Assembly: GCA_963971225.1 (NCBI GenBank)
Contig: OZ020269.1
Location: forward strand, 103,464,067-103,528,066
Direction of reading: 5' to 3'
Length of the DNA stretch: 64,000 nucleotides
Origin: Melieria omissa
Lineage: Eukaryota > Arthropoda > Insecta > Diptera > Ulidiidae
Positions 9,205-56,704 of the stretch are shown piece after piece; within the stretch, counting starts at the first letter, position 1, and each line of letters opens with the position of its first letter. Both the position numbers and the translations under genes were made by a program. Below the pieces are notes generated by a model. The model searched no databases. It was given only the letters and a program-made list of their open reading frames with translations, and was not told where the DNA came from.

Positions 9205-11300
9205 ATTTATTTATTTATTTATAGAAAGTCTTTGAACAATTCTTACAGACTAACTAACAAAATGGAACTTAAGCTTAAACTTAAACAGGAAAGTGAGAAT
9301 AAACAAAAGAAAGGAACAAGGCTTAGGTACACATAAATCAAACATTGAAGAGGTCGACAGCGAGATTTATCTCGGCTAAGGGTCGAGGAATAGAAGCGTT
9401 ACTACCATAACGCGTCCTAGAGAACTCAACAGAAAAAGGGGAAATATGTCTGAGGGAGCGAGATGGCACATTGAAAGCTACTTTCGACAAGAGAAAGGGG
9501 CAATCAATATTTCCATTGAATATATCAAAAATGAAAGCCATCGAAATGACAGCCCACCTGGTTTCAAGTGATTTTAAACCAAGCAGAATACAACTAGACC
9601 TGTAAGGAGGCTGGGGCTCAGAAAAACCAATAAATCGAAGGGCAAACTTTAGGAATCTTCGTTGGATACGCTCTAAGTGATTATAATGCGACACGTGATA
9701 AGGTCTCCAGATGAAAGCAGCATATTCTAGTCTGGACCTAACAACAGTAGTATACAAGAGCTTGAGCGTATAGGGACTGGGAAAGGACGAAGAATTGCGG
9801 CGGACAAACCCTAACATAGAGTAGGCACGCGAGACAATGCAATTAACATGGGAAGTGAAGCTGAACTTTGAATCAAAGACAAAGCCCAGATTCACCTTTT
9901 CTAACACTGTGCCATTAATTTCAAATGAAGTTTTTACCGTATTAGTGGATTTCGAAAAAGTTGAATGAAAGCATTTGCTGACGTTTAAGCATAAACGATT
10001 TTTTTGCACCACGCGATGACATTATTGAGGTCGGACTGGATTTCGATGGTTTAAAGAATCAGGCGAAGTATGGACAACAGAAAAAATCTTCAAGTCATCG
10101 GCATAGAGCAAGAAGTTGGAGAAGGAAAAGCAAGCACTGTTGTCGTTTATGAAACTTTGTCGAAAGATTTAGAGAAATCGGTGTAGATTGTTTCCACTTG
10201 AGAATTATTCTGAAATGCAGAGAAACAGTAATTACTAAGGACCGCAAGATTAGTAACAGTTGAGCGGGACGAGACAAAACCATGCTGGTTAGGTGAGATT
10301 AAACTCTTTACAGCAAAGTACAGTTTCTTCTTAATTATGCCTTCAAAAAGTTTCGAAACCGTGGAGAGCTTAGAGATTGGGCGATAATTAGAGACGTCGT
10401 TTTTGTTCCCGCTTTTAAAAATAGGAGTAATTGCCGCTAATTTCCAATCATCAATGAAAACACCAGAGGAAAGCGACACATTGAACATTAATTGTAGAGG
10501 GTAAACTAGCGAGGGACAGTTCTTTAGGAGAATGGGTGAAAGACCATCGGCATCGGTTTGTGTTGACGAATCAGATTTAAAGGAAAAGTTGCTACTGGAC
10601 GCAGAATCCGAAACGAAGTTAGAAAAGAAAAAGCCGCAAAGAGATCTGCAGCCTCCGGAGCAGAACTCGCGGACTTACCTCTGAAGAAAACAGTCGAGGG
10701 AATAGATGAGCTGTTATTTTTAGAATTAATGAATCGGCCTTAGGGTTGGAGTTGATGTTGGCTTCAAAGTTGGAAATATAATTGCGATACAAAAATGTAT
10801 TGAGGCAATTAAAATCCTTCTGGGCACTAAAAAACTTAAGATAGTAATAATTACTAGAACTTTGTCTGTATTTCTTGTAATATTTACTTTTAAAATTTTT
10901 AAGGTGTTTAAGCCTTTTCGTATGCCAAGGAATTTTATACTTCCTCTTTTTGATAATCGGAATATTATCAACACAAAACATATAAACTTTAGATTTGAAA
11001 GCAGAGAAACATTCAGAGACATCTAAGTTCGTAAAAAGAATATTCCAGTCAACATCAAGGAACACATTATTCATAGTGGGAAAGTCAGCATGGATGAAGT
11101 TGAAAGAGGGCCTAGAACTACCTGATGACAGGGGGAAAACATAGAATTCACATTCTAGAATAATAGGAACGTGATGCTTGTCAGAGGACGAGAGAGGGGA
11201 AAAACATTCAAGCAATCTAAAATTAACATTAACACTAAGGAAAATTAGATCTAAGATTCTACCCAGTTTGTTAGAAAGGACATTTATTTGATGAAGGTCG
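9205..11300 (-). mobile_element. Non-LTR retrotransposon, jockey/CR1 type, degenerate
   Basis: Minus-strand element with its 3' end at left, marked by a TTTA-repeat tail (plus strand, about 9207-9223). Coding pieces run right to left. 10619-11215 corresponds to the end of the endonuclease and linker. 10147-10488 is the start of the reverse transcriptase, with YRPIS- and DFSKSFDKV-like motifs. Near 10090-10125 is FLLYADDLKIF, the catalytic YADD box. 9338-10012 is the thumb and C-terminus. Between the DFSKSFDKV block and a FIND-like block just before YADD, about 60-80 codons including the usual GVPQGS box are missing and the frame changes. The 5' boundary near 11300 is uncertain and no target duplication was found. 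Confidence 0.8.
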
Positions 11301-13549
11301 ATGATGAAGGTTGATATTGTGATATATTTCTTCTAATTTATTAGTAATTTTTATTATTTTTTAGTGAAATTTTTTAGAAAGTAGTACTCAATAACTGGTT
11401 TAGTTTATTTATTAGAAACTAGTTTTTAGTTCGATGAGTAGAAGAGAAAAAATTGGAAATATACATATCATTTAATTGATACTTATCATAGTTTTGATTG
11501 TGTTATTTCCTAATTAATTTTTAATTACTAAAATAAAATAAATAATTAATAAATACAATTGTTGTATTAGAAATTTGCTAATTTTTTTCAGTTTCTTAAA
11601 AAAAATTTAATAAATTATTTATTTTATTGACACAAATTTTTTGAGTTGGAGATATTTACCGTAAAATTTGTATATTTTTATGTTTTTAGTATTTATAAAA
11701 GTTCTTTCCTTATATTGTATTTTCATAATTCATTGTTTTTATTATTATGTATTATTATTATCTATTATTATTAAAAAAAAAAACCGAAATTCAATTTTTT
11801 CTCTTGTGTAAACTTTGTTGTCGCACGGTGTTATTATTTTTTTTATTTTTTGTTATTATTTTTGTTTTATTTTTACTTAAATTTTTAATAATAGTTTTTC
11901 GAATTCTTGTTCTTAAATTTTATTTAATTAGTATTATCGACTATTTGTCGAAATAAATAATAATTTTTAAATTTTAATAGTTTAATTGTAGATCTTTAAA
12001 TTTATTTTTTATTATTATTAATTTGTATTTATAATAATTATTTTTTTAATTCAACAACTTAACACTTTAAAATTTTAACTAAAATGTATTTCAAAAATTA
12101 AATAAAATATCATATTTTTGTGCTCAAATCTTAAATATGAAAAGTAAACTATTATATTTCTTAAATCACAAGATCCACATAACGTTATTGAATTTCTAGA
12201 TTTCTCTCATTTTACATTACATTTCATATTACTTTGGCGTAATTTTTGTTTCCTATAAATGGCTATAAAATAAGAATGTTTATTATTTCAACCAGTTTTC
12301 GATTTGTAATTTGCTTTAAATGTCGCCGCAATATCGCTTACCAATATTCCTTTGAACCTCTAATAGGGTTAAGTCGCATTAGGTTTGAGTTTTTGCAAGC
12401 GATGCCTGCCAACACAACCACACACAATTCTGCATTTTTTCACACACACACACACATACGCACAGGTTCTGCCATCCATATTCAATAAACCTGAAAATTT
12501 ACGGTTTCAGCTATCAAAGTAAAACGAAACGCACAAAAAAAGGATGCTGCAATGTTTCTCAATAAAAAGAAAACAAAACGCAGCCAGCAGCAACAACTAC
12601 TCCAATAGAAGCGATTAGCATTTTATAGACCCTTAACCACTGAGCCCAGCTGCAAAGGGCACATTCCCATACACACGACCCCACGTGCACAAGTCGCACA
12701 AACATAATAAAAAGGGGAAAGCAGCAGCAAAATCTTTAAACACACAAACGAAAAAAAATGTCATTTGATGTCGTTGCGCTTGTTTGTGTTGTCTTTAGAT
12801 TTCTATGCATGATTTGTTGTTTTTTGGTGCGCTCTCTGCCATTCTTATTTTCCGCATGTTGCAAGCATCCCATAACCTATAACATTCAAATGTACATATG
12901 TTCTCTAAGGTTTGTATGTTTGTGTGTAACCTTCCTTTGGTTATCATAAGAAAAAAACATCAAAGTTTGCAACCCTCTTGAAATGTTTTTGTTCGCTGGC
13001 ATTACTTGGACATATGTTTGCGTACGTGTTTTGCTGCTCGCTGAATGTCGGCAAGAACCAAGAAAAAAAAACACAAAAAAGCATATGTCCGTTTGTGCGA
13101 AGAAGACGGTAATTTATTCTACTTCGTCGCATTTCTAGTGCAAATATTGAATAAGCAGCATTTGGCAGCGTGTCTTCTTTGGCCAACTTGATTAAATTTT
13201 GCTAAACTCTTATTGAATTACAAGAAAATAGAAGGACAGTTTTTTTGAGCATTTCACGTGTGAATGATTTGGTGTGATGTATCTACAATTGTGACGATTG
13301 TTTTCAAGTAGTTTGCACGCGAGCAAATATTTGGGATATTAGTTTAATAAGGATGGGTTCGGAGATTGTAAGGAATAAAACTGCAAAGTGGTCAGCGGCC
13401 TCGAAACATGGATCAACTATAGGAAATTGAAAATATGCAGGGATTTGAAGGATATCTAGAATAGAACAGAGAAAGCAAATCGATGATTGTCAAAGGTCCA
13501 AACATGAATAATTGCATATAAAAAAATAAAATAAAACACAAAAAACAAA
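11301..13549. other. AT-rich noncoding DNA
   Basis: Extremely A/T-rich to about 12240, then moderately AT-rich with a CA run at about 12440-12460. No exon, TIR or retrotransposon domain recognised. Confidence 0.5.
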
Positions 13550-15165
13550 ATTAAATAACATAAAATAAAATAAAATAAAATAAAATAAAATAAAATAAAA
13601 TAAAATAAAATAAAATAAAATAAAATAAAATAAAAAAATTTAATTAAATTAAAAGAAAATAAATATAATAAAATAAAATAAAATAAAATAAAATAAAATA
13701 AAATAAAATGAAATAAAATAAAATAAAATAAAATAAAATAAAATAAAATAAAATAAAATAAAATAAAATAAAATAAAATAAAATAAAATAAAATAAAATA
13801 AAATAAAATAAAATAAAAAAAAATGAAATAAAATAAATAACATAAAACAAAATAAAATGAAATAAAATATAGAGTCCGACCGATACCAAATTTTTTGGCC
13901 GATGCCGATGCCGATTAATCGGCATCGGCCAATTATCAGCCGATGCCGATTAATCGGTCAAAAGGCCGAAAATCGGCCGATGCCGATGCCGATGCCGATT
14001 CCATAGAAAAAAAAACACGAATGAATTCAATCAAAAACACAGCTTATTTTATAAAACAAAAAAAGGAACTATTACATATATAATACATTTCATCACATTT
14101 ATCACAAATTAACAAACGAAAACGAGAAAATAAACAACTAAAAACTAAATAAAATTACAAGAAAATTCAGAATTCAAAATTAATATCTCATGAAAATTGC
14201 TCATTCTATTTGGCACAAGCAATTAACAAAAGACCCAATAGCCAATATAGCTGAACAAGGTGTTGATGTAGCAAAAATAGATTAAAAATATCTGAAAAAT
14301 ATTGTCCCCTTAAGTATTTGTCATAAAATCCAAACAAATCTAAGGAGAAACCCCCTAATCAGGCAACACTGGTTTGTAACGTATAATAAAAATGTAATAA
14401 ATATACAAAGCGAGATATGAAAAAGGAAGACAGTGCGATTCAGCTGCAAATAAAATCGTATTAAAAAATCGAAAATCGTAAAATCGACCAAAAAACCGAT
14501 GTGGCATCGGCCAAAAAAAGCCGATGTGGCATCGGCCAAAAAAGGCCGAAGCCGATGCCGATGCCGATTCTTTTTTTTTTTGGCCGATGCCGATACTAGC
14601 CGATGCCGATACCAATTTTATTGGCCGATACTAGCCGATGCCGATGCCGATGCCGATTAATCGGTCGGACTCTAATAAAATAAAATAAAAAATAAAAAAT
14701 AAAACAAAATAAAATAAAATAAAATAAAAAAATTTAATTAAATTAAAAGAAAATAAATATAATAAAATAAAATAAAATAAAATCAAAAAATTAAATTAAA
14801 TTAAAAGAAAATAAATATAAAAAAATAAAATAAAATAAAATAAAATAAAATAAAATAAAATAAAATAAAATAAAACAAAATAAAATAAAATAAAATAAAA
14901 TAAAATAAAATAAAATAAAATAAAATAAAATAAAATAAAATAAAATAAAATAAAATGAAATAACATAAAACAAAATAAAATGAAATAAAATAAAATAAAA
15001 AATAAAACAAAATAAAATAAAATAAAATAAAAAAATTTAATTAAATTAAAAGAAAATAAATATAATAAAATAAAATAAAATAAAATAAAATAAAATAAAA
15101 TTAAATAAAATAAAATAAAATAAAATAAAATAAAATAAAATAAAATAAATAATAAATAATAAATA
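13550..15165. repeat. (AAAAT)n pentanucleotide array, interrupted
   Basis: Plus-strand TAAAA repeats run from about 13550 to 15165, split by the hAT-like element at 13870-14674. A non-repeat linker containing AATTTAATTAAATTAAAAGA recurs at about 13635, 14730, 14790 and 15036, so blocks of array plus linker were themselves duplicated. Rare single-base variants (C or G in place of T or A) recur in several blocks. The minus strand (TTTTA)n has no stop in any frame, which creates long spurious open frames. Confidence 0.95.
13870..14674. mobile_element. hAT-like non-autonomous element with GCCGAT subterminal repeats
   Basis: 805 bp with inverted termini TAGAGTCCGACCGAT at both ends, flanked by the 8-mer ATAAAATA (13862-13869 and 14675-14682). 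Both ends are packed with GCCGAT/ATCGGC hexamers, including back-to-back inverted runs. An 8-bp duplication and dense subterminal hexamers fit hAT elements, where such repeats act as transposase binding sites. The duplication is weak evidence because the host is an AAAAT array. The AT-rich centre (about 14010-14460) has no recognisable transposase, so this looks like a non-autonomous derivative. Confidence 0.7.
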
Positions 15166-16802
15166 CATTGTTAAAGTTCCAACACTAGACCAATAAAATT
15201 TCCACCCAACACTGAATCAATTCACAGTATCCCTTTCTGGTCCTTTCTTGTCATTGCCAGGACTCCACTCGGAGTTTTGGTTTCACTTAATTTTTTATAT
15301 CTTCTTAAATCTCCTAACACTTATCAGACATGCACATCTATAATGTCCCAGGATCAACTATTACTCTGCCCTTCATGCAGCTTTTCCACTCGACATCGAC
15401 ACCAGTCGACCTCATTCAACTTAACAAACTACAGTAAGCGAGAAAAAAAACGCATTCATGAATATTTTGCAACTTTCAACCACAATCTCGCCGACGTCAT
15501 TCAATATTGCATGGATTGACGCATGGAAAGGCAATTTCGTACATTTCAACACGCTTTTCCTTAATGCATTGTTGTGCTTTCTGCAGCTAAAACTCAACAG
15601 CTTTTCGCCTCCTTCGCCTTGACTATGGTTACTGTTGGACGCTGGGCGCCCAACGACTGACGGCTGCTGTGTTGCTGCTATTCTACTCTTTCGCCACAAT
15701 ACGCTTCGGTCTTTTGTCTAAAATTGCATTCCATTTTTGTTTTTTGCTCCAAATCTGTTTCGCTTTCTCACCATGTTTGTTGTTGGCATTGTTAGCGCTT
15801 AGCTTTTCCTTTTCGTACGTTGCTTTGACAAAAAAAATTTAATGCTACTACTGCAGTTTGTCCTTTCAAGTGTACCGCTCTGTGTGTGTCTGTTGTTGTG
15901 TGTGTGTGGGTGGATGTCTGTCTAGCTTGACTTTGCCGTTACTCCTTTGCTCCGCGTGTGTGAAATTGCATACGCGTATTTATGTCTGAATGCCTGCTCG
16001 CATCGGAGGAATTAAATTCCCAGCTCGACATTCAGCTGCAATGCATTACCCACACGGCGCTCGCATGGGGCTGGCTGGGCGTGTAGGGAAACACACACAC
16101 ACACACCGACACACAGACAAAAGGTTTGTGCATGTGCTTGAATGAGCAACGCTTTTCCAATTTTCCAATTTGGGTTACTTGGTTTTGAGCTTCAATGACA
16201 CAGATTTCGCTTACATAAACCATTGAGCAATGATATCGTTTGGCGTTTAGTGCAGCACACGACTTAAAGTCATTGGCGCCGATATGGCATTAGGTGCGAG
16301 TTGAAATGATTTGAAGGAATTTATTGTTTCACTGGGAACAGGTTAGGGTAGGTTAAGTGAGGAGTGGCGGCTTAAAGAATAAAAAGAATAGGAATATACC
16401 TTAAAACTACACAAACTCCGGTTAGAAGAGGGAAACGATTGGGACTTCCTTATGAAACGTGACTTCCTTATGCCGTTTATATTAATGGTTGACAAATCAA
16501 ACAGGCCCAACCACAAAATAGGACCCAAGATGGATGGAGTCTCATGCCGGCCAGAGCCCTTCTTCATTCAAAAAGCCAAACCTGCGGCAGTTCTCATTGA
16601 AAGAAAAGCCCAGTTCCCGACCTCCGACGACGCACAGTGCTTCGACTCCATACAAAATTACGGCAAAAATACAAGGAGTACGTGAAATTCGCTGAAAATT
16701 TGCATTTTAAGTCATTTTGGGCTGCTGACTTAAAAATTTGTGTTTGTTTCTAAAAAAACAAAACAAAACTCAAATTGAAATTTTTCAAAACAAAATCTTT
16801 AT
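15166..16802. other. Noncoding DNA, no recognised gene
   Basis: Contains a GT-rich run near 15880-15912 and a CA run at 16091-16107. Near 16340 is a short AGGTTAGGGTAGGTT stretch like the SINE tails elsewhere in the window, but without the SINE body. No credible coding exon. Confidence 0.45.
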
Positions 16803-17190: not shown

Positions 17191-17487
17191 TTCGATAGAT
17201 TCCCTAGAAACCGTATGGAAATACATTTTTTCAATTGCGTTTTTCTCCGGTCGTTAGTTTTCGACATAAGCTACTCTGTTTTATCGCCACAGATTTATAA
17301 ACCGACAAGTATTGTTTTTCATAAAAATGCACCTTCATATATCTTGAAATACTTTGTACATAATTAGTGCCCCACCCAAAATGACATTCCGCCACTGGCT
17401 TTGTAGTCGTCCCTGTTGCCTGGTGTCGGTAATTTAAATTTGAGTGTAACGAATTTTCGTTGATAGGCGGAAAGCGAAGAAAAAACG

Positions 17488-17496
17488 TATAAAAGG
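17488..17496 (+). promoter_or_regulatory. TATA box of OBP-like gene 1
   Basis: TATAAAAGG lies 98 bp upstream of the start codon. The same box, with strongly similar sequence on both sides including TCAAGTATTGAACACTTTCA just downstream, precedes OBP-like gene 2. Such conservation between paralogs supports a real core promoter. Transcription should start roughly 25-30 bp downstream, near 17515-17520 (inferred). Confidence 0.75.
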
Positions 17497-17585
17497 CCAG
17501 TGTTGCTTCAAGTATTGAACACTTTCATCGAAAGTTGCCGCCACCGACGACACTCACCTCACTACATCGCAATTCTTGCAACGCC

Positions 17586-18255
17586 ATGAAAGCAATTTTA
17601 GTTTTTGGGTTTCTGTCGCTATTTGGCGCTTCACTCGCCACGCGCAATCCGGACGATGAGGTAAGTAGTTCTGTTTTAACAAATTTATCGTAATCATGTC
17701 TCCAGAATGTTATCCCAAACTATATTTTATTAGCACATAACCGCGACACTCACCTTCAATGGTATTTTGTCTTGTGACACATTGAAATTTCGTTTAGCTA
17801 TTTTATTTTTCAATGTCACACACCTTTATACTTGAAATCTTTCCTCAGCATTCGATATTGGTAGTACTGAATTTGTATACTAAAATTTGCTCATTTTTCT
17901 TGATGCTCGATGCTGCCGAGGAAACATTTGTTCATAGGAAATGCTGATGTATTGTCTTTGTATTTGTTTTTTTCAGCTTGCAGAATGCTTTGTAAAGTTT
18001 CCGGAAAGCGAACAAAGATTCACCGAAGACGGTCCTAATGATATTGCAAAGCAGCATTTTTTGTGTATTTTTAAGGTGACTGGGTTATACGCCGACGGCA
18101 AGTTCGACGTGAACGGGCTGCTTGAGGAAGTAAAGAGCGTTATGACTCCCGAATTGCTTGTTGACTTACGGAACATAATAAACAGCACCAAGGGCAGGGA
18201 CGATGGCGAGACGGCGGTTTTAATCGTGAAAGAGTGGAGGGAGTTGCATCCATGA
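17586..18255 (+). CDS. OBP-like (PBP/GOBP family) secreted protein 1, two exons
   Basis: Exon 1 is 17586-17660, a GTAAGT donor follows, the intron is 17661-17976 ending TTTTTTTCAG, and exon 2 is 17977-18255 (TGA). The product is 117 residues. Residues 1-18 (MKAILVFGFLSLFGASLA) form a signal peptide. Exon 2 carries the OBP core: a Cys in the AEC segment, a second Cys in FLCIFK, then GLYADGKFDVNGLLEEV, the typical helix 3 region. OBPs are small helical carriers of hydrophobic ligands in sensillar lymph or other secretions. Only two Cys remain, at the usual C1 and C3; C2, C4, C5 and C6 positions hold other residues (Gly in DDGETA replaces C5). Ligand and tissue are unknown. The start is fixed by the signal peptide and the conserved promoter. 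Confidence 0.82.
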
Positions 18256-18280
18256 AGAGGATATCACTATAATAATAATA

Positions 18281-18457
18281 CACCTAATTCTGTTTTTACA
18301 CGGTTTTGATTTAACACGGTTAGAAAATTAAAAAAAATTTCAATTTTTCGTGCTAAATGTAATAAAATCGTGTAAAAAAATTAAAAATTTATTTATTTTC
18401 AAACCGTGTTAAATCAAAACCGTGTAAAAACAGACCGTGTAAAAACAGAATTAGGTG
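18281..18457. mobile_element. 177-bp MITE with TA target duplication (Tc1/mariner type)
   Basis: Near-palindromic element starting CACCTAATTCTGTTTTTACA and ending in the inverse, flanked by TA (18279-18280 and 18458-18459). The arms continue through an ACACGG...GATTTAACACGG inverted stretch; the right arm has an extra 15-bp copy of CCGTGTAAAAACAGA. It lies 25 bp after the stop codon of OBP-like gene 1. The 3' flanks of the two other OBP-like copies read straight through AATAATAATAACATAT with no insert, giving the empty site and confirming the TA duplication. Confidence 0.88.
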
Positions 18458-18459
18458 TA

Positions 18460-24500: not shown

Positions 24501-24654
24501 AGAAATACTCTTGGTAGAAATTTTTCCATACTATGAAAATTGGGGCTTCAAAATTATGTTCCATACTCAGAAATTCTGGAATCATCCTTTCATCCGCAGA
24601 CATATTACAAATACAAATTTTGACTTAAAATTTGTATTTTGTTTGACTGGATTA
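21550..24654. other. Noncoding DNA with dinucleotide and CAA/TTG repeats
   Basis: GT/CA tracts near 23105-23160 and 23899-23918, CAA-rich stretches near 22905-22935 and 23470-23490, and a TTG run at about 24169-24195. Composition rises in G+C toward 22800-24300. Open frames on both strands are low-complexity translations of these repeats. This could be intron or flank of a host gene, but no exon can be proposed with support. Confidence 0.45.
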
Positions 24655-25160
24655 TAAAAAATAAAATAAAATAAAATAAAATAAAATAAAATAAAATAAA
24701 ATAAAATAAAATAAAATAAAATAAAATAAAATAAAATAAAATAAAATAAAATAAAATAAAATAAAATAAAATAAAATAAAATAAAATAAAATAAAATAAA
24801 ATAAAATAAAATAAAATAAAATATGATAAAATAAAATAAAATAAAATAAAATAAAATAAAATAAAATAAAATAAAATAAAATAAAATAAAATAAAATAAA
24901 ATAAAATAAAATAAAATAAAATAAAATAAAATAAAATAAAATAAAATAAAATAAAATAAAATAAAAATCAATAAAATCAAATAAAATAAAATAAAATAAA
25001 ATAAAATAAAATAAAATAAAATAAAATAAAATAAAATAAAATAAAATAAAATAAAATAAAATAAAATAAAATAAAATAAAATAAAATAAAATAAAATAAG
25101 ATAATATAAAATAAAATAAAATGAAATAAAAAATAAAATAAAATAAAATAAAATAAAATA
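24655..25160. repeat. (AAAAT)n pentanucleotide array 2
   Basis: About 505 bp of almost perfect plus-strand AAAAT repeat, with a few variants near 24822, 24965-24980 and 25098-25130. Same unit and strand as the array at 13550-15165. Open frames encoding FILFY-type repeats on the minus strand are artefacts of the repeat. Confidence 0.95.
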
Positions 25161-25165
25161 CGAGT

Positions 25166-26945
25166 CTTAAAAATTTATTAAATTCGAAGAAGACTAAACT
25201 CCGCTCTCTTCTTATTCGGCTGCAACCGTTGGTTCCACTGCAAGTTCGCGCCTTGATGCAGTCAACACCAATGCATTTTTTGTCTTCTTCTTTACTCCGC
25301 CCAGGTGCACGACCCAATGTAGCGTGTTGCGCGCACCGTCTTGTGCTACATTTCTGATAGGCTTTCGACAGTGATAGCTGGCTAAATGATACCCCATCAA
25401 CATGTCAATTGACCGACAACAACATGCAATACGCAGACACATGAGCCAGAACCCACCAAAATTGCAATTGAAGTTAATTTCGGCAAATTGCATGCCACAA
25501 TGTGTTAAAGGCAATGAGCCCAAAAATTCTAAAGAAAACACTAAAAAAACATTGCTCTGTGTATGTGTGTGTGTAGTGAAGAATTAAGAAGCACCAGAAG
25601 TAAAGTCAGCCAACGTTGGCGAAAGAAAAGTTTAAAACACTTGGCGCATGAAAAAAACAAAAATGTAAAATTACACCTTAGAAAGCACTTTAGCTCTTGT
25701 CTCTCTACCAGCTCGCAGCGGCGGCATACCAACGCGCCGCACGGCTGCCTGTGTTGCAGCGAGTGCGATGCGGCTGCTTGGCGCTGTGGTGTGGTGTGTG
25801 GTAGAACACCACTTAAGTGCCCCCTTGCAGTGCGCAGCTCCGCCCCAAAAATTGCGCAGCGCCGTCTCGCCGTAATCTGTGGCTGCCGCAGCCGCCGCTG
25901 CTGCAACTTGCAACACGGCGGCCCTTTGCTGCGTGAGTGCGCGCCCAGCGAGCGAGTGAGACGCGAATGAGCGATTACTCACGCGAAGGTAATTTGGAAA
26001 TTGCTTATTAGCGCAACGCGCAGCGCCAACACCAACACCAACACCACCAGCAGCAGCCGCCCCGGCAGCCGCGGTTGCAGTTGGGGCCGCGGCGCATACC
26101 GCCACTTATATCACCTCCTCGTTAGCTGGCGCATCCAGTCAGCCAGCCAGTCCGACAATACGACACGATTGCGCCTGCTTGTGACTTGTGGCAGTGATCA
26201 ATCGAATTGCGCGGCCGGCCCGTCTGGCCGGTCGGTCCGCTTCCTTTCAGGCTGCTGCGCGCGCTGCACAAATCGTGGCTTCGAACTTGAGGCGGCGCGC
26301 TCGTTCGTGGCATTCTTAGCGCCCTGCAGCGCTGATGGCACTGTCCGATGTTGCAACCATGCAACCAGCCATGCAGTATTCGCTCGCTGCCGGTTTGCGC
26401 GTTGCCTGGCAATTTTCTGACGTATATCTTTGTGCAAAATTTGTGGTGTTTTTGTTGTTGTTGCTGCTGCTCCTTTTCTTGTTGCATTGAGCCGCAGCAA
26501 CAGTTGCAGTTAATTTGCCAGTTTGCCAACACTGCAGCCAACACTTTTTCCGAATGAGGTAACAATCGGTTATTTTGAGCTCTTCGTCGAACTACGGTGC
26601 GACTGTGTGTTGCAGTCTATGTGTGCGTGTGTGTGTGTGAGTGTGCAAATTGCAGGATATTAGCGTTGCTTGACAGTTTGCAACAGTTTTTGAAATGTCA
26701 ATCGCTGTGTGATGGATAAGCAGACGTTTTATATTTGATAGAAAGAAAATAAATGAAACATATATGATTTTATATATAATTGTTTGTCCAGATTGTTTAG
26801 TGGAATTAACCTCATTCTGCACATACAAAAAGTGATCAAGTATAGAAAGTCTACACTTAGAAAATCCATTGTTGAGATTGACTTGACTAAACCCTCAAAG
26901 AAATGTCACCCATCCAGTAATGGCCTAATATGAGTCCTGGTCTAA
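25166..26945. other. G+C-rich island and microsatellites, no proven gene
   Basis: From about 25690 to 26420 the sequence is much richer in G+C than the window average, with many GCA/GCC triplets and CCAACA repeats at 26027-26047. A TTG/CTG run lies at 26450-26475 and a GT run at 26622-26645. Open frames on both strands are alanine-rich or otherwise low-complexity. A promoter or 5' untranslated region of a host gene is possible, but I see no decisive splice or coding signal. Confidence 0.4.
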
Positions 26946-28556
26946 GTGTTTGGGATTGCCATCAAATTTATTAAGCTTATTCTTCCTTATGTCCTTGGTC
27001 CCCTAACGCACATAATAAATCCCTGCTTCACAATTTCGTGTTTTCCGGAAATTTGGAAGGTGGCTACAATTGTTTCTGTGGCGAAGAAATCTGCTGCTTC
27101 ACATCCGGCTGACTTCCGACCTATCAGCATATTGTCCTCACTCTCCAAAGTCTTCGAATCCCTCATGGCTGAGCAGATCTCTAGTCACATTGACATGTTT
27201 GCACTAATGTCACGCCATCAGTCAGGTTTCCGTCCACAGCTATTATCAAAGACCTGGACGACATAAGAATACCATACGAGCTTGGCAAGGTTACCTTACT
27301 ATGTTTGTTAGATTTTGTTTGTTAGATAAATCATTCAATATTGTGTCAAAAGCTCACATGTTACTTTCGGTTTCCGGATAGTGCGGTAAGACTTTTGGAA
27401 AGTTATTTACATGGTCGATCTTAGAGGGTTAGGGTTGGGCATAACTTTTCCTCTTATAATTTTGTGAATACTGGGGTCCCTCAAGGCTCAGTACTTCGTC
27501 CACTCCTTTTTGCTATGTTTATAAATGACATTTTCAGTGTGTGTAGCCATGTGTCTATGCATGCATATGCGGATGACATCGAACTCTATCTGTCTAGGCC
27601 TGTAGGTCTTTTTGAGGACTTCTGTGTGAGGGTAGATGGGCCTGCGAGAACCAACTCAAGATTGTTCCACTAAAGTCGTATGTTCTTCCGATTTCCAAGC
27701 CACCGCTCCCCCTTTGTGATGTTCCTCCAATTTCTCTCAACGGTTCTCAGCTGCAGTTCGTGGACCGGATCACTAACCTTGGATTTAGGATCAATTCCTC
27801 GTTGTCTTGTGAGGACCACATAAACTCGGTCGTAAGCAAAATATACTTGACGTTACGAAATCTTAGAATGATTGTTTCATTCGTACCATGTGAGACAAAA
27901 CGAAAACTGGTTCTACAGCTAGTTTTACCCATAATTACATATTCGGAAGTTGTCTACACCAAACTTGATTCTAAGTGGAAACATAAACTGCTTATTGACT
28001 ACAACAATGCTGCACGTTATGTCTATGGTTTAAAGAAAGGGGACCACGTTTCTTCTTATAGTAGACAGTTCTTTGGCCTTGACCTCAAAAGCTACTTAGA
28101 AGCACAAAACTGTATGTTTTTACATAGATTTATACATACGAAGCGTCCCGGCTACCTTTTTGAAAAGCTTCTGTTTTGCAAGTCAAGTCGAAATTACAAT
28201 CTCCTAATTCCTAACCATAATTTCAAAAACTCCAGTAGGCTATTTTTCATTAGCGCCATTAGGTCGTGGAACTCGCTTCCTAGTGCTTTCAAATGTATTT
28301 CGAGTAGTGGTAACTTTAAGCATCTACTCTTCAAATATTTCTCATAACATTTCAAACTTTTCTCTCAATCTTAAAGACAGATAGCGTCTCTACTTTCACT
28401 TACACCTAATTAAGAGTTTTCTTTGTAAATTATTAAAACATTGTAATAATATAGTTTTTAATGTGTAATGCTCTAATTGGCATGCAAAAGATTGTATCTT
28501 ATATGCCTGTATAATCTGTTAAATAAATAAAATAAAAATAAAATAAATAAATAAAT
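26946..28556 (+). mobile_element. Non-LTR retrotransposon remnant, jockey/CR1 type
   Basis: Plus-strand reverse transcriptase in three pieces: 26946-27266 (DFRPISILSSLSKVFE block), 27464-27673 (NTGVPQGSVL, FINDI and the catalytic AYADDIELYL), and 27760-28347 (thumb and C-terminus). Frameshifts and stops separate them, for example near 27267-27460 and 27674. The endonuclease half is missing, so the copy is 5'-truncated. After the stop, AATAAA and an A-rich AAATAAAT tail end near 28556. Its motifs resemble the element at 9205-11300 only at clade level. Confidence 0.85.
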
Positions 28557-29580: not shown

Positions 29581-31927
29581 GTAGACTCTCCTACTTTCAG
29601 TAAGACAGATCACTTTCTCCTTGTGGTATCACAACTGGCCCGTTTTAAGGCCTAATTATGTCTTTCGGAAGGTCCCATGCAGGATTTTTAACATAACTTA
29701 ACCACATTTACGATCTTAAGTTTTTCATTCTACTAAACAATTTAAGTAACCTAATTCCTCATCAACTTCAAAAGTTCTGCATCAACTATCTACAAAATTC
29801 CTAAAAAGTATGAACTTTTTTTCTACCACAATTCACTAATAAATTATACACTATTAATTTTGCATTCATTAAAAATGAAAAGAATAAAAAAAGTAGCCAA
29901 AGCGCTTTTCAACATCGCCGCGTACGCCAACAAAAAACACACAAAACCAAAATGCAAATTTTCAATTTATGAATTTTTCTACAACTTAACTAAACTTTAA
30001 ATTAGACAAGCGGCATAAATGCATAATTGTTGTTGTTGTTGTTGATTGTTCTTATTCGCTTTGCTAGTTGACGCACCGAAGCGCAGCAAATGCGGCGCAT
30101 AAATTTCATGCGGTAAAAATGCCACAAAGGCGCAACGCGCAGAAATTATCAGCATTCAAGCATCGCTTTCGCTTATTTAGTGCGGCAACTGCAGTCGTTG
30201 ATAGTGTGGACTAAATTTTGAAACCTACCAAAAAGACCAACTACAACCACAACAACAACAATGAGTGGAAAATGAAATTTTGTAATACGGTGTGTTGGTG
30301 TGTTGAAAGGAAGCGAGCGTTTTCGTGTGTGCCGCAGCAATTTATTATTAAAAATAATTAAGACATTTTATAAATTTTAGATTAAATGTACAACAACAAC
30401 AATAAGCAGAACGTGAACAAGACAAAAAATAAATAAATAATGCCGTCAACACAACTACAACTAAATTAACAAAGCCAAGTGTTGATTGTTAACTTGCGGC
30501 CCGAGCGCGCATAATTTTAAACTTGCCGCACCTGCGGCAACGAAGGTCGCCGCCAACCAGAGCGTATTTGCCGCATGTAGAGGCAGCAACGGCAACATTT
30601 GTTATAAAGCAACGAATTTTGAGAAAAAATTCATATCGCCTACACAAAATTAATGACCCATGCAGTGGGTACAACGTAGTCTTTAGTCTAACACTATCTT
30701 TGTCTTTGTTAAAGGCACATTTCATGTTCAAAAATTATCTCAAATTTTCATCTACATAACTGTTGAACTTAACAATTTATGGGCGCACAATAACAACAAC
30801 AAAAACAATAATAATTGCAACAACATTAGTGCATGAACACATCAAATTGCATTTGAAGCGCATTAAAAATGGATTAGCGTATTGAACTCCAAACACCGAA
30901 AATATGAACAACTCAAAGAATTGCAAAATAAAAAGCCAAGGTCAATGGGGTCGTGACAGTGTAGTTGGTAATAAGCGAAAGAAAATTGTCTTAGTGTGAT
31001 CGAAGACGGAGTCGACGTTCGTGTTGTGTGCCGCCATGCAGTCGAGCAGTTATTTTGACACTAAGCACCAACAGAAAAGTCGGTTTTTTTCTTTGGTTTT
31101 TTTGGTTTTCGTTGAAAGACATTGTTGAGCTGAGGTGCTTTGGCTTTTGGCGAAAAAGATTACATTTATACGCTTTTCATTACTAAAATAAAAAAAATAA
31201 AAGACAAAGGCGAAGTGTACGACAAAACGGAAACTGCATTGAGCCGACTTTAAAGGAGTTAAGTACTTTTGGCAATTTGTATTGGCCAAATGTGAATGTG
31301 TAATGTGCATTACGAAATTTTACACTTTGGAACTGTTGGGAAGACTCTTGCTAACAGGTCAGGGCAGGTCTTGCTAAAGTTCTACTACGTCCAGTGAAAC
31401 TATAAAAGACGTTGAACCTATCAGTGCCATCTATCTATTCCAGGTAGAATGAGAATGATTTGCGACACAGATCAATGAAGGTGACCATGTTAACTTATAT
31501 GGGTTCTGCAATCACACTGACCACGTCTGTACCCATTATTAATAAGAAAATCTATGCATTTTTACTGCAGAAGTAAAAATGTAGGGAGTTCAAATGGAAA
31601 CAGTTTTTGTATCGAGTTCAGCTTCTTAGTAGTCGATTTCAGAGAATAAAAGTTAGCACTGATCTTGAAATTTTCTTCTTCAAATAATTTTTTCCATACA
31701 TCGGTACACACAAACTTTTAGCCCTATGAATAACCATGCCATCTATCCTGTTTTTCGCGGGATACTCCTTTTTTTCAGCTTGTAAAAACCAATCCCACAA
31801 ACATTTTCGAAATCCTTTCTTTCTATATAAATCCTTCTTTTCTCATACAAAATTCCCAACGTATACTGTTGAAAAACAAATGACAAGGAGATGGTTATTA
31901 AAGCAGCTGAAGATATTTGAGTAGGCA
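29581..31927. other. Noncoding DNA with TTG/CAA repeats
   Basis: TTG run at 30028-30045, CAA runs near 30250-30265, 30390-30402 and 30790-30815. No convincing exon, TIR or retrotransposon domain. Confidence 0.45.
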
Positions 31928-32488
31928 ATGTTGATGAGGACTCCAACATGGGAGGATGTTGAAGTGGTGATGTTAAAATTGGATGGGCTTAACTTGTACG
32001 ACGCAAAACAAACAGCAGCGAAATTGCACGCACAATATGGATACATTGAAAATTACTGCAACGATGATAAAATTAAACAGTGGAGAAATGACAATGGTTG
32101 CATTACGGATCGATGGACAAAAATATTCAGTCGTTTGTATGCTGAAAACTGCGACTACACCGAGATAGCCAGTTTGATTGAGTATATTTTGTGTTTGCCA
32201 GGGACGAGTGCTTCAGTTGAGAGAGTGTTTTCTGTCGTTAATAAATCTTGGACGGAAGAAAAGTCCCGACTAAAACTCGACACTCTGGAAGCGTTGCTCA
32301 TGGTGAAATGCAACTTGACATATTCATGTGTAGAGTTCTACTACTTTTTGAAAACGAAATCTGATTTACTCCGCCAAATTGCTAAAAACCATATTTGATG
32401 CCAATGCGTGTGCGATTGACTTTGAAGACGCTGATGACAACGACGACAATGATGAAGTTGTAGCAATGCTAGTTGATATGGATAAATA
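31928..32488 (+). pseudogene. hAT transposase C-terminal fragment
   Basis: The open frame 31928-32398 (156 aa) contains LPGTSASVERVFSVVNKSWT, the conserved start of the hAT C-terminal dimerisation domain, followed by a long helix rich in Leu/Lys (RLKLDTLEALLMVKCNL). After about 32390 the frame shifts by one, and an acidic tail (FEDADDNDDNDEVV) runs to a stop near 32488, as in related transposases. The BED finger and catalytic core are missing. A short direct repeat GGCACCTTACAAAGA at about 32505-32535 follows. No TIR pair was found. Confidence 0.82.
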
Positions 32489-41610: not shown

Positions 41611-42503
41611 TGTTGCCAGATACCTGAAATGACTTTCTCCTAAATCTTGAAAAAAGCTGAAAATTCTCCTTAAAAATTAAGAAAAAATTTAAATCCAAAA
41701 AGAATGTAGTTTCTGAAAATTTGGGAAAAAATTCAAATAAAAATTCCTAATACTGATTAAAGAAACCACTATCTAATATATTACACTTCAATTGAAACAC
41801 AATGTACAAAAATTTATTTTAATTCTTGTCCTAAACTAAGAAATTAAGCTTCTTGTACCCCTTAACAAAACTAAAAAATTAAATCGATATGAAATTCGCA
41901 TTTGTAAACTTCATTCTTTGTATAAATTATACACTTTGAAGTATAGAAAAAAATTAAATCGATTTAAATACTTTAGCTTTCAATATTCAAGACTTTAGTG
42001 CCACTAATGATGTCAAATGGATCACCATCAATGTCTCCTAAGGTTAAGTTAGGTTAGGTTGCGGTGGCTGCCTCTATAAGAGACACACTCGGATTCCTGA
42101 AAGGCCCATTGTGATACCACATATTTCACCCGTTTTTTGAACTGTGTATACAACACTGTTTTGCCAACATATGTTATAGCACACATTTCAAGCGGATGGG
42201 GAAAGGGGGGGAGGGGACCTACAGTTTAACGCCGAATTCGAACGGCGATTGGCAGTTTTTCGTTCACACTTGTGCGATTCTTGTAATTCTCATTCCCTTC
42301 ATGTGGATAGCGATAGAAGTAGACGAGTGTTTCACCAGCCCGAGCCAGGAATCGAACCTGGAGCCTTTGGTATGAGAAGCCAGCGCGCTACCCGCTGGAC
42401 TATCGAGGCCGGCAAATGTCTCCTAAACTTTCTCCTAAATCTTACCCTAAAAGGCCAGGAATATCCTAACTCTAGGAAATCTCCTGATCTGGCAACAATG
42501 GGC
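41611..42503. mobile_element. Candidate DNA transposon with GTTGCCAGAT ends, hosting SINE copy 2
   Basis: TGTTGCCAGAT near 41611-41621 and its inverse ATCTGGCAACA near 42490-42500 bracket AT-rich sequence in which CTTTCTCCTAAATCTT recurs inside both ends. Setting aside SINE copy 2 leaves about 505 bp. Such ends occur in several insect DNA transposon groups; the class and target duplication are not determined. Confidence 0.45.
42042..42414 (-). mobile_element. tRNA-derived SINE, copy 2 (12-bp target duplication)
   Basis: 373 bp flanked by the perfect repeat AATGTCTCCTAA (42030-42041 and 42415-42426). The tRNA-like head is at 42410-42336 on the minus strand, with the same B-box GGTTCGATTCC, and an AACCTAACCTAACTTAACC tail lies at the left end. 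This copy lacks the internal 56-bp duplication of copy 1 and probably reflects the basic SINE structure. Confidence 0.92.
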
Positions 42504-45453: not shown

Positions 45454-45467
45454 CCCACTTAAGTACT

Positions 45468-46479
45468 TACTTACTTAGCTGGCGCAACAACCGTTTATCG
45501 GTCTTGACCGAAACCAAAAGAGCGCGCCAGCCGGTTCTGTCCTGTGCTTGCTGGAGCCAGTTGGAGATTCCAAGCGCCGACAGGTTCTGCGACACTTGGT
45601 CTTTCCAACGTAGATGAGGACGTGCTCTTCCGCGGCGTCCACCTGAAGGCATATGGAAAACATGGCCAAGCCAGCGCAACCGCTGTACTGTTATGCGCTT
45701 GACTATGTCCATGTCCCTGTATAGCTCGTACAGCTCGTTGTTCCATCGTATACGGTACTCATCACCCACGCGGAGCAGACCGAAGACTTTGCGGAGCATC
45801 TTTCTCTCGAACGCTTTCAAGGCACGTTCATCGATGGTCGACAACGTCCAGGACTCCATCCACCATATAAGAGGACGGGGATAATAAATGCCTTGTAGAG
45901 CGTAAGTTTTGTTCGTCGTGAGAGGGCTCTACTTCTCATCTGCCTACTGAGCCCAAAGTAGCACCTGTTGGCAAGAGTTATTCTCCGCTAGATCTCCAGG
46001 CTGACGTCATTGTTGGTATTGATGCTGATGCTGTTGATACCAAGATAGACAAAGTCGTTTACCACTTCAAAATGACTGCTGCCAACAGTGACGTGTTGTC
46101 CAAGACGCGAAGACTCTTTGTGTGTTGACAGGAGGTACTTTGTTTTGCCCTCATTCACCGCAAGACCAACTTTGCTCGCTTCTTTCTCTAGACTGGAGTA
46201 CGCCGAACATACGGCACGGCTGTTGAGGCCAACGATGTCGATATCGTTGGCATATACCAATAGCATGACACTTTTGTGGAAAATAGTGCCAGCGTGGTTC
46301 AGCTCCGCGGCGCGTATGATTTTCTCCAGCAGGAGGTTGAAAAAGTCGCACGAAAGTCGCCCTGTCTGAACCCTCGCTTGGTATCAAACGGCTCGGAGAG
46401 GTCCTTCCCGATTCTGACGGAGCTAGTAGTGGTGTTCAACGTCATTTTACACAGCCGTATCAGTTTGGCCGTATCGGTA
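45468..46479 (-). mobile_element. 5'-truncated non-LTR retrotransposon, RTE-like, 14-bp target duplication
   Basis: 1012 bp flanked by CCCACTTAAGTACT (45454-45467 and 46480-46493). The minus strand encodes reverse transcriptase pieces. 46299-46484 has FRQGD after a KRGFR segment. 45988-46266 has YANDIDIVG, where the catalytic YADD box carries Asn for Asp. 45467-45859 is the C-terminus (RIRWNNELYEL, RLRWLGHV, RWKDQ). The last codons run into a (TAAG)3 tail next to the duplication. Short tandem-repeat tails and this C-terminus suggest the RTE clade. Frame breaks near 45860 and 46270 and the altered YADD make it inactive. Confidence 0.85.
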
Positions 46480-46493
46480 CCCACTTAAGTACT

Positions 46494-47040
46494 GTATATT
46501 TATTATTATTGCCGGGGAAAGTGCACTGTCCGTTAGTCCAGTATCCAAAAGGAATTAGTATATTTCTAAGCCGGCCAAGTTCGTTCAGCTTTTCAAGGCA
46601 TTCCGGCACCAGTTTCGAGGATACTTGGTAGGACCTTAATGCCCTGACAGGATAGCAATATTCCGGTTCCGGTACTTCCTCACCAGATTGAAGTGAACAC
46701 ACCTTTCAATGGCGCGTATTTCCGTCTGGAAAATGGTGAGTTGCTTTTCTGTATGTTCCGAATATCTAATCCCCGGTGCATACACACCGATTCCGGTACC
46801 TTCCTCCGCTAGGGAGCCATCTGTGTACCAGGAAATCATGTACTGATCTATCAGATACGTCTCTGATATACCTAACCAGCTTATTTTATAACTAAATTCT
46901 GTTCTAAATCTTTTGGTGAAACAGAGCTTCGGAGTAATTGTATCTCCCGGTATTGCAGTCTCGGAATACTGGTTCCTAAGAATATAAATCTTCTTACGAC
47001 TCAGGAAACCCTCGGCCCCGATATTTACGTCAGTCATCCG
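46494..47040 (-). pseudogene. I/R1-like retrotransposon RNase H fragment
   Basis: The minus-strand frame 46636-47037 shows WYTDGSLAEEGTGIGVYAPG (first Asp) and IFQTEIRAIERC (Glu). The second Asp block is damaged (ILSGH and a stop), and another frame gives LEKLNELGR farther on. Sequence before the RNase H (MTDVNIGAEGFLSRKK) is also shared with the pieces at 51956 and 61865. The RTE-like element is inserted at its left edge. Confidence 0.75.
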
Positions 47041-50855: not shown

Positions 50856-51448
50856 TCAATGACGCAACTTATTCCACTCGTCCACAATTAAAACCGCCGT
50901 CTCGCCATCGTCCGTGCACTTGGATTTGTTTACTATTTCCTGTAATTTAACAATCGCTTCGGGAGTCATCTTGCTCTTTACTTCCTCAACCAGCCCGTTT
51001 ACGCTGAACTTGCCGTCGGCGTATAACCCAGTCGCCTTACAATAACACAAATCAGCCTGCAAATAGGCCTTATCATTAGGACCATCTTACTGATGCTTTA
51101 CAAGGCATTCTGCAAACTGAAAATACAAATACAAAGACAAATACAAATACATCATACCGTAAATAACCGCGACCCAGCATTTCCTATGAACAAATGTTTC
51201 CTCGGCAGTATCGAGCATCAATAAAAATACTCAAATTATAGTAGATATCAAAATCAGTACTACCATTGTCAAACGCTGAGGGAAGGTTTCAAGTAGTTGT
51301 GTGACATTGAAAAAAAAACTTAAACGAAATTTCGATGTGTCCCAAGACAAAATACTGTCGAAGGTGAGTGTCGCGGTTATGTGCTAATAAAATATAGTTT
51401 GTGATGACATTCTGGGGACATTATTACGATAAATTCAACTGCTTTCAT
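50856..51448 (-). pseudogene. OBP-like pseudogene (copy 2)
   Basis: Exon 2 (51116 down to 50856) aligns with OBP-like genes 1 and 2: AEC, then GLYADGKFSVNGLVEEVKS and DDGETAVLIVDEW to a normal stop. It carries an in-frame TAA eight codons after the splice acceptor and is six codons shorter than the intact exons. The exon 1 remnant begins at ATG 51448; after about four codons (MKAV) the sequence jumps directly into intron sequence, so most of the signal peptide and the splice donor are deleted. Upstream, similarity ends about 20 bp before the ATG, so the TATA promoter is gone. The intron remains close to that of gene 2. Confidence 0.9.
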
Positions 51449-51619
51449 GGCGTTGCAAGAGTTGCGATGTATGTTACAACAAAAAGTGTAGTTAAGACAT
51501 GTAGGAATAATGTGAACAGAGAACCAATTTTTGAGGTTAAAATTCAGCATAACATAGTTTTGACTTGCCTGTACGCAAACTTTTTCTGACGATTGTACTA
51601 TATAGTTGCGTGCTTACCC

Positions 51620-54713: not shown

Positions 54714-55357
54714 TCATGTTTTGGGCAGAAACTGTCCTGCAATTAAAGCCGCCGTCTCGCCATCGTCCCTGCCCTTGGTTCTGGCTATTATACTCTGTAA
54801 TCTAAGAATATCTCCGGGAGTCAGCTCGCTTTTTACTTCCTCAACCAGCCCGTTCACGCTGAACTTGCCGTCGACGTATAACCCAATCGCCTTAGAAATA
54901 CACAAACAACCCTGCTTTGTAATATCAGTAGGGCCACCATCTTCGTCGCTCCCGAATTCTCTTATCGGAAACTTTGCATCGCATTCTTCAATCTGAAAAT
55001 ACAAATACAAATACAAAGACATCGTACCGAAGAAACTTAATCTCAGCATCAATAAAAATGAGCAAATTATAGTAGATATCAAAATCAATACTACCATTGT
55101 CAAACGCTGAGGGAAGGTTTTAAGTAGTTGTTTGACATTGAACAAATTAGCTAAACGAAATTTCGATGTGTCACAAGACAAAATACCATCAAAGGTGTAT
55201 AGGTGTATAAATAGTTTAGGATGACATTCAGGAGACATGATTACGATAAATTCGTTAAAACGGATCTACTTACTTTTTTCTGCACATCGCTTTTTTCTCC
55301 ATCCGCGAGTGAAGCGCTAAGTAGCGACAGAAACACAAAGACTAAAACTGCTTTCAT
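54714..55357 (-). CDS. OBP-like (PBP/GOBP family) secreted protein 2, two exons
   Basis: On the minus strand, exon 1 is 55357-55274 (28 codons), donor GTAAGT, intron 55273-54993 ending TTTTCAG, and exon 2 is 54992-54714 (92 codons plus TGA). The product is 120 residues. The signal peptide is MKAVLVFVFLSLLSASLA, then an acidic/basic linker (DGEKSDVQKK). Exon 2 holds EEC, GCLC, GLYVDGKFSVNGLVEEVKS and DDGETAALIAG. Three cysteines remain; the C5 position in DDGETA is Gly, as in copy 1. The C-terminus (QFLPKT) differs from the KEWRELHP of copy 1. Promoter and intron are closely similar to copy 1. The open frame running past 54992 toward 55238 is intron read-through, not an N-terminus. Confidence 0.82.
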
Positions 55358-55442
55358 GGCGCTGTAAGAGTTGCGATGTAAGTGAGTGACGTCGGTGGCG
55401 GCAAATTTCGATGAAAGTGTTCAATACTTGAAACACCACGGG

Positions 55443-55451
55443 CCTTTTATA
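55443..55451 (-). promoter_or_regulatory. TATA box of OBP-like gene 2
   Basis: TATAAAAGG on the minus strand, 86 bp upstream of the ATG, inside a block (about 55358-55570) that matches the gene 1 promoter, including a GAATTTTCGTTGATAGGCGG stretch just upstream. Conserved position and context support function. The OBP pseudogene lacks this block. Confidence 0.75.
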
Positions 55452-56704
55452 CGTTCTTTCGCTTTCCGCCTATCAACGAAAATTCGTTACACTCGAAGTG
55501 AGATTACTGACACCAGGCAACAGCCATGACTACAAAGCCAGTGGCGCACGCAGAATGTCATTTTGGGTGCGGCTCCGCACACCACTTTCAAGCGCAATGC
55601 CATTTGACACCATAATTTTTGCCAAAGACATACACTAGTCAGAATAAGTTTGCGTACAAGGAATACGTAGTTTTTTCATATGAAAAATAAATCACATTTT
55701 TCAAAAACAAAATATTTTTCATTTCTTCCGTATACTTAGTGCTTTTATTCCATAAACTTGACCCAACTGAAAAAGAAGGCCCAAAAACAAACTATGGTAT
55801 GACTTCACCTCAGAAAAAGTTTGCGTACAAGACAGGGTTATGTGGTTAAAATTCAATTGAAACTAAGTTTTGTCCAAAAATTAATAATTTTGTGAATATG
55901 CCTTTCTCACTTGAACTCCCTGCAGAAGTTTCGGTGTACATTTTACTAACTTCGGTGTTTTTTCAGCGATTATTTTGTTATATCCTTGAATTGTTACATT
56001 GGTTTACTATATCTTTGAAGGTGGAGTGTGTTGGGCTCAGGGTTCAAGTTAACCCCTTATGTACTCAATTAGATGCACGTTTGATGACTAGGGAGGAACT
56101 TTTTCAGCTTTGTTGATCCAGTTAATAGCAAACATAGCTTCGCTTCGTATGCATTGCGTCCTAAGGTTGAAAATAAATGTTGGAATCTGATCCAAAAATT
56201 TGAATTCTTGGCTTACATAAGCTTTTAGAATATGTAAATAATTCCCTGGAAGCATTTCTGTGTAAAAAAAAACAGGCTACTCACTCCTTTTCCTAACTTG
56301 CAGCCCCATACCCTATCCCCACATATGCTATGCTACACTGTTAATTTCAGATTTTTGTTATCAACAGGATCCTCTTCAAATAAGTTGACCATTATCAGAT
56401 AATAATGAATCGTCCCACTTTCTATGGATGACAACATATCGTCCCAGAAATTCGCCTTTCTAGACTCTTTGATGGACCGTTTCACGAAAGTAATTCTGTG
56501 CTCCTTGTTAGTATGCTAAGTAAATGCTTCTCATATGCTGTTATGTATATTAGATACATATGTTTTTTCAGGACTTTTCTTATAAAGTCACTGCTACTGG
56601 GTTTTATAAATATGTTTTGTAGAAGGCTTATTTTTTGTAACTTTCAGCTTACTTGCTTTAGTTAATAGAAGTGTGTAATACAAAGGATTGGAAAAAACAA
56701 TATA

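Follow-up and report, generated by a model that had tools for sequence, protein, structure and literature searches.

The window analysed here, a 64,000-nucleotide stretch of the genome of the ulidiid fly Melieria omissa, contains three related copies of a small two-exon gene: gene 1 on the forward strand, and gene 2 and a pseudogene (whole extent 51448-50856) on the reverse strand (Table 1). Gene 1 encodes a protein of 117 aa and gene 2 one of 120 aa. In exon 1 of the copies a hydrophobic N-terminus ends, judged by eye, in ASLA. The TATA box is identical in gene 1 and gene 2 and sits at a matching distance, and 19 of 207 aligned sites differ between their 5′ flanks. For the pseudogene, the match to the promoter query is limited to 38 bases around the start codon. 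The exon-2 coordinates that the first-pass annotation had assigned to gene 1 and gene 2 are correct.

Table 1. Features of the three gene copies in the window.
Feature	Positions	Strand	Description
Gene 1 5′ flank	17370..17585	+	TATA box TATAAAAGG at 17488 and 5′ leader, conserved across copies
Gene 1 exon 1	17586..17660	+	Putative signal peptide, judged by eye, and start of the mature protein; ends in phase 0
Gene 1 intron	17661..17976	+	GT...AG, 316 nt
Gene 1 exon 2	17977..18255	+	Most of the mature OBP-like domain; fast-evolving; 279 nt including stop
Gene 2 5′ flank	55358..55570	-	TATA box TATAAAAGG at 55451
Gene 2 exon 1	55274..55357	-	Putative signal peptide, judged by eye, and start of the mature protein
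Gene 2 intron	54993..55273	-	281 nt; recent lineage common to the c2, c3 and c4 introns outside the window
Gene 2 exon 2	54714..54992	-	Nearest to copy c6 outside the window; 279 nt including stop
Pseudogene exon 1 remnant	51437..51448	-	12 nt only; promoter, remainder of exon 1 and beginning of intron absent
Pseudogene intron remnant	51117..51436	-	Aligns to the gene 2 intron
Pseudogene exon 2	50856..51116	-	In-frame TAA at codon 10; 7-codon deletion; 1 internal stop

A near-perfect, TA-flanked, MITE-like inverted repeat (18279-18459) lies in the 3′ region of gene 1, where it splits sequence common to gene 1 and gene 2 and carries an AATAAA at 18361. Its 24-base end is present twice in the window, both times within this repeat. 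A motif of 20-30 bases recurs at 51570-51597, 55631-55663, 55810-55829 and 61487-61514, with occurrences upstream of both gene 2 and the pseudogene as well as at another site, and is perhaps a transposable-element end near duplication breakpoints. On the reverse strand at 57052-60825, two long, adjacent and mutually in-frame open reading frames with a single stop between them have by eye the look of a Gypsy-type polyprotein. Five further open reading frames, at 9338-11332 (-), 27616-28347 (+), 31925-32398 (+), 45467-47103 (-) and 49592-50008 (+), appear to be transposon-like fragments, resembling (by eye only) pieces of non-LTR reverse transcriptase and of hAT-type and mariner-type transposases. 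A single tRNA-Glu-like match at 42336-42410 (-), with a borderline Rfam score of 30.8 against 29, is possibly part of a repeat. Long low-complexity repeats occupy 13456-15170 and 24582-25404, whose open frames translate into repetitive stretches of F, I, L and Y.

A family of at least eleven copies

Further copies were sought in the assembly that contains the window (164 contigs, 490 Mb), and the family size given here is a lower bound. Exon 2 was found in 10 places, and a DNA query consisting of the promoter and exon 1 of gene 2 recovered 10 promoter-bearing copies and the pseudogene remnant. The family comprises at least 11 copies, all on one contig (C3), nine with an open exon 2 and two with a broken one (the pseudogene and c11). 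Gene 1, gene 2, the pseudogene, c2, c3, c4 and c6 lie within about 150 kb of one another; c8 and c10 are found farther away near 104.37 Mb, and c9 and c11 near 95.57 Mb. Copy c10 is missing about 15 exon-2 codons and has a longer tail, and c11 has a promoter, signal peptide and intron together with a broken exon-2 frame. Splice sites and open exon-2 frames are kept in 9 of the 11 copies and the promoter in 10, all except the pseudogene.

The two parts of the gene differ sharply in their variability. The putative signal peptides are nearly identical across all 10 promoter-bearing copies (pS 0.062 and pN 0.049 over 45 pairs), whereas the mature parts are strongly variable, with pS 0.214 and pN 0.296 in exon 2 over the 36 pairs of the nine open copies.

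Protein searches for homologues outside this genome brought up 6 candidates, none at E 0.01, and a further 1896, none at E 10, while a scan of viral contigs gave 109 pattern matches, 0 of which were confirmed as homologues. The collections searched outside the genome apparently hold few or no insects, and the absence of homologues from them is therefore uninformative about the rarity of the family. This particular family was not found described in the open-licence literature that was searched.

A predicted OBP fold with two conserved cysteines

With Pfam family PF01395, gene 1 scores 16.9 bits, below the cut-off of 22. Exon 2 of 6 of the 9 copies matches the same family at E 0.0058-0.15, in every case below the cut-off, and it is the top match in three of those six. 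A profile built from 9 copies finds honeybee OBP5 (ASP5) as its best match in the PDB (E 3.6e-5), followed by blowfly OBP56a (E 0.14) and lacewing Chrysopa OBP4 (E 0.19), with unrelated rows at E 1 or worse. The ASP5 match weakens when fewer sequences are used, to E 0.0052 with a 3-sequence profile and 0.57 with gene 1 alone. AlphaFold2, run with 9 rows, returns a model with pLDDT 91 and pTM 0.83, and the first 39 rows of a Foldseek search are all OBP, PBP, THP12 or D7 structures, with no E < 0.001; by these two methods the predicted fold is the alpha-helical OBP fold. Because of the profile match and the predicted fold, the proteins can be regarded with good confidence as OBP-like.

Only two columns hold a cysteine in all 10 aligned copies, and profile alignments place them at C1 and C3. 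The minus-C class is defined as having fewer than six canonical cysteines (PMC3428353). The Melieria proteins fall within it, outside the six-cysteine class of classic OBPs, and judged by cysteine count in the aligned sequences are an extreme minus-C form. The 15 selected columns have polar and hydrophobic fractions of 0.49 and 0.48, and the 37 invariant columns 0.43 and 0.38, which is no clear difference in polar or hydrophobic enrichment between these two sets.

Replacement excess among the window copies

The first-pass annotation had counted 38 identical codons, 2 silent differences and 24 replacements over 64 ungapped exon-2 codons of gene 1 and gene 2. This count was reproduced exactly, and all 91 alignable exon-2 codons give 48 identical, 3 silent and 40 replacement codons. 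For gene 1 and the pseudogene, 19 replacements and 2 silent differences had been reported over 60 codons; a recount of the last 61 gives 39 identical, 2 silent and 20 replacement codons. Such raw counts exaggerate the ratio, because silent steps are hidden inside multi-hit codons. By NG86, dN and dS are 0.342 and 0.156 for gene 1 and gene 2 (Fisher p 0.027), 0.264 and 0.096 for gene 1 and the pseudogene (p 0.034), and 0.347 and 0.142 for gene 2 and the pseudogene (p 0.021), a dN:dS ratio of 2-3, more closely about 2.2-2.7, in the three window pairs.

The intron, described by the first-pass annotation as conserved, is so only in relative terms. A stretch that is about 90% alike does exist between the pseudogene and gene 2 (51214-51366 and 55045-55197, 153 nt), but it is the best stretch, and the whole intron is more diverged, with indels and 34 differences over 261 aligned sites (JC 0.143). 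The corresponding JC distances are 0.132 for gene 1 and the pseudogene and 0.177 for gene 1 and gene 2, the latter depending on the alignment (43 of 273 or 51 of 272 sites). Intron divergence of 0.13-0.18 is thus about equal to dS (0.10-0.16), not lower. In the window pairs silent sites and intron diverge alike, and replacements accumulate about twice as fast.

Codon models of the three sequences give the same direction of effect. Maximum likelihood estimates omega at 3.82 (p 1e-4), or at 3.35 (p 0.011) when multinucleotide mutations are allowed. A joint model that takes the intron as neutral reference and applies the same multinucleotide rate to intron and codons yields omega 2.35 (p 1e-5), falling to 1.92 (p 0.002) without the hardest-to-align codons and to 1.59 (p 0.05-0.06) for 56 core codons. 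When the joint model is mismatched, with multinucleotide mutations in the codons and not in the intron, p is 0.052, 0.11 and 0.49 for the three codon sets. Neutral simulations produced 0 of 150 replicates per setting as extreme as the observed data, with or without the intron. The replacement excess proposed for a secreted OBP-like protein therefore stands: dN/dS exceeds 1 by several methods, also in copies outside the window, and the ratio below 1 that had been named beforehand as grounds for giving up the idea was not obtained.

Positive selection across the family

All comparisons are between paralogues of one genome. The pairwise and maximum-likelihood tests use the exon-2 alignment up to column 88, the exon-2 tree in the likelihood tests was estimated from the same data, and c11, with its broken frame, was left out of all codon tests. 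Exon-2 dN exceeds dS in 38 of 45 pairs. The seven pairs with omega below 1 are c2-c3 (0.38, from 4 replacement and 3 silent steps), gene 2-c6 (0.87) and five pairs involving c9, for which omega is 0.81-0.93 and dS near 0.5.

Comparisons of M1a with M2a favour a class of positively selected codons in several subsets of the family. For five intact near copies (c3, c8, c9, c10 and the pseudogene being left out), p is 9e-10, or 2e-6 in the multinucleotide-aware version; for 7 copies including the pseudogene, the values are 2e-10 and 1e-5. Trimming of the variable ends and a loop gives 4e-10 and 3e-8 for the 5 copies (70 codons), and 5e-13 and 6e-9 for 9 copies (64 codons, c10 left out). For the gene 2/c6/c4 triple, M2a is significant without multinucleotide mutations (p 8e-5) and falls to 0.068 with them. 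The multinucleotide-aware M0 test gives p 0.17 for this triple and is marginal for the 7-copy set (p 0.065). The fast class takes in about 30-40% of exon-2 codons, and a class with omega near 0 another 15-27% in the 5- and 7-copy sets; the presence of this zero-omega class indicates that the proteins are still constrained and not decaying.

The cleanest pair is gene 2-c4, the exon 2 of c4 lying about 0.5 kb beyond the window. Their introns differ at 8 of 273 sites (3%), their 5′ flanks by 0.105, and in exon 2 all 21 changed codons are replacements (dS 0.029, dN 0.143). Under neutral simulation the probability of 0 silent changes among 21 is 0.003-0.010. A Fisher test of N against S alone gives p 0.053, and an event-level test 0.010. 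Nine of the 21 changed codons are multi-hit, where the simulated settings averaged 1.7-5.0. In sum, exon-2 replacements outrun silent changes in about one third of the codons, others stay invariant, and positive selection has acted among the paralogues. An arms race may be its cause.

Exchange between copies

Intron and exon 2 have different histories. In the intron tree c2, c3, gene 2 and c4 form one group (bootstrap 100), whereas the exon-2 tree joins gene 2 with c6 (94) and then with c4 (96). In AU tests the intron data reject the exon-2 tree (p 2e-6) and the exon-2 data reject the intron tree (p 1e-5; 5e-4 and 0.015 for each half alone), while neither half of exon 2 rejects the tree of the other (p 0.16-0.18). 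The difference between the two genealogies means that copies have exchanged sequence, which makes the intron unsafe as a general clock. The first-pass annotation had argued for selection from coding sequence that evolves faster than the intron; as stated, this argument is not borne out. Some of the contrasts on which it would rest, such as c2-gene 2 (intron 0.055, dS 0.213, dN 0.369), arise because of exchange between copies.

The simplest reading of the incongruence is ectopic exchange bounded close to the junction of intron and exon 2, by which the intron has moved independently of exon 2. Exchange leaves dN > dS inside exon 2 unexplained. It is detectable only with the wider family and not with the three window copies, among which MaxChi-type tests are negative (p 0.19-0.82). 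Gene conversion mosaics among these three were considered on the strength of uncorrected runs tests (p 0.0024 and 0.0026) and rejected, as the signal is gone once same-pattern changes within 2-3 bases are merged (p 0.93-0.98). In c8 and c10 the C-terminal halves of exon 2 are almost the same and the first halves strongly different, which hints at further exchange inside exon 2.

Relation to known systems

Labile, positively selected OBP clusters are already known from Drosophila. The seminal OBPs Obp51a and Obp22a form labile clusters with pseudogenes, Obp51a ranging from 0 to 12 copies; both are expressed in the reproductive tract and show significant sites tests for positive selection, with the selected sites of Obp22a lying outside the ligand pocket, according to the sections of that study cited here (PMC10834028). 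The Melieria family resembles them in small OBPs, labile tandem clusters, pseudogenes and positive selection. It differs from what those sections describe in that the promoter and the putative signal peptide are near-identical between paralogues that have otherwise diverged strongly, that exchange has affected intron and exon 2, and that only two canonical cysteines are left (PMC10834028). The Melieria family is likened by these features to Obp51a and Obp22a, whose expression is documented.

The minus-C OBPs of the medfly, including MSSP (OBP99c-like), are likewise secreted, cysteine-poor and tandemly expanded in the accounts consulted (PMC3469604, PMC3267753, PMC12539182). The two groups are set side by side by description, and the OBP99c-like proteins are longer, at 142-144 aa against 117 and 120 aa for the window genes. 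Nasonia also has a large OBP family in which positive selection is tied to loss of canonical cysteines. Losses there usually occur by disulphide pairs, and the largest among those listed is of three cysteines (C4/C5/C6) (PMC3428353), whereas in Melieria four of six (C2, C4, C5 and C6) have apparently been lost and the C1-C3 pair is left. In Anastrepha, positive selection is likewise reported on OBP56h, OBP57c and OBP50a, in OBP56h after duplication; the selected OBPs of that report are classic or plus-C, none belonging to the minus-C subfamily there (PMC5054612). The OBPs of 12 Drosophila genomes present the reverse of the Melieria family, with purifying selection, a negative gene-conversion analysis and fast-evolving signal peptides in the part of the survey drawn on here (PMC2258175).

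Competing explanations

The near-uniform 5′ module, the rapid exon 2 and the incongruent trees could in principle be products of gene conversion or exchange alone, with exon 2 seeming fast since introns and promoters have been homogenised and no selection is at work. The AU results are what this account would predict, as are the introns of c2-c4 and c2-gene 2 (0.04-0.06, against an exon-2 dS of about 0.2) and a 5′ module that is nearly uniform even at silent sites. Exchange, however, moves silent and replacement differences together and cannot by itself lift dN over dS. Neither exon-2 half rejects the other's tree, the clumping of changes in the window copies vanishes on merging (runs p rising from 0.003 to above 0.9), and in gene 2-c4 the intron and dS agree at 0.03 with dN at 0.14. 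As sole cause, exchange is largely refuted by dN > dS inside exon 2, and we consider it unlikely. About as improbable, or slightly more so, is a mutational artefact, with the apparent signal of positive selection coming from multinucleotide mutations or from misalignment of variable stretches. Changes do cluster: 19 of the 43 changed codons between gene 1 and gene 2 are multi-hit, the introns of gene 2 and the pseudogene differ at 12 adjacent pairs of sites against 4.3 expected, and allowing multinucleotide mutations improves the fit and weakens the M0 tests. Yet the multinucleotide-aware M2a remains significant in 4 of 5 data sets (the triple, at 0.068, is the exception), trimming the hard-to-align parts of the 5-copy set lifts omega from 2.3 to 3.1, and the joint model still gives p 1e-5 when intron and codons share one multinucleotide rate.

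That the copies are simply decaying duplicates under relaxed constraint is very improbable, even though two of the 11 are broken (the pseudogene and c11) and c10 combines its deficit of about 15 codons with a longer tail. Relaxation allows omega up to 1 and not 2-4, the frames, splice sites and promoters listed above are mostly retained, and all 10 aligned copies share two invariant cysteines; this explanation is largely refuted by the combination of omega above 1 and a zero-omega codon class. Harder to set aside, while still doubtful, is a chemosensory cluster of the antenna or mouthparts, selected for new odour ligands and unconnected with reproduction. In its favour, the best profile matches of the family are OBPs, including blowfly OBP56a from the oral disk, and tephritid OBP56h and OBP57c are reported to be under positive selection (PMC5054612). 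Against it, the selected codons lack polar or hydrophobic enrichment relative to invariant ones, and the putative signal peptide varies far less than the mature part, the opposite of OBPs generally as that survey presents them (PMC2258175).

Interpretation and significance

Taken together, the window is best read, with a probability of about 0.7, as holding some members of a recently arisen and still growing family of small secreted OBP-fold proteins that has been diversified by selection. The conserved 5′ module, made up of a TATA promoter and a signal-peptide exon, would ensure that all copies are secreted and probably expressed in the same way. From duplication, from ectopic exchange and from positive selection acting on exon 2 would then arise differing carrier or decoy proteins, whose partners, whether ligands or proteins touching the surface, may change faster than the scaffold.

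In conotoxin-type precursor families the signal peptide and the gene frame are conserved, and the mature region is hypervariable. The Melieria genes may, tentatively, represent an OBP family evolving in the same manner, with a uniform promoter and signal cassette, interchangeable and hypervariable mature exons on an OBP scaffold of two cysteines, and intron-borne swapping of cassettes between copies. The likeness is one of evolutionary pattern only, as the fold is unrelated. By analogy with Drosophila Obp51a and Obp22a, male reproductive secretion may be the most likely setting, a suggestion we hold with somewhat less than even confidence, the remaining probability going to chemosensory or other secretion.

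OBPs are usually seen as conserved carriers that evolve by birth and death under purifying selection, with positive selection in a minority. Here the 5′ module is uniform, the mature exon hypervariable and exchange between copies demonstrable, so that duplication, conversion and selection can be separated within one gene, in a form that can be tested. The family also carries a lesson of method: introns of paralogues are no neutral clock unless it has first been tested that they share a genealogy with the exon. If the proteins are seminal or otherwise transferred, they would lend themselves readily to the question of whether ligands or protein partners at the surface drive the diversification of OBPs.
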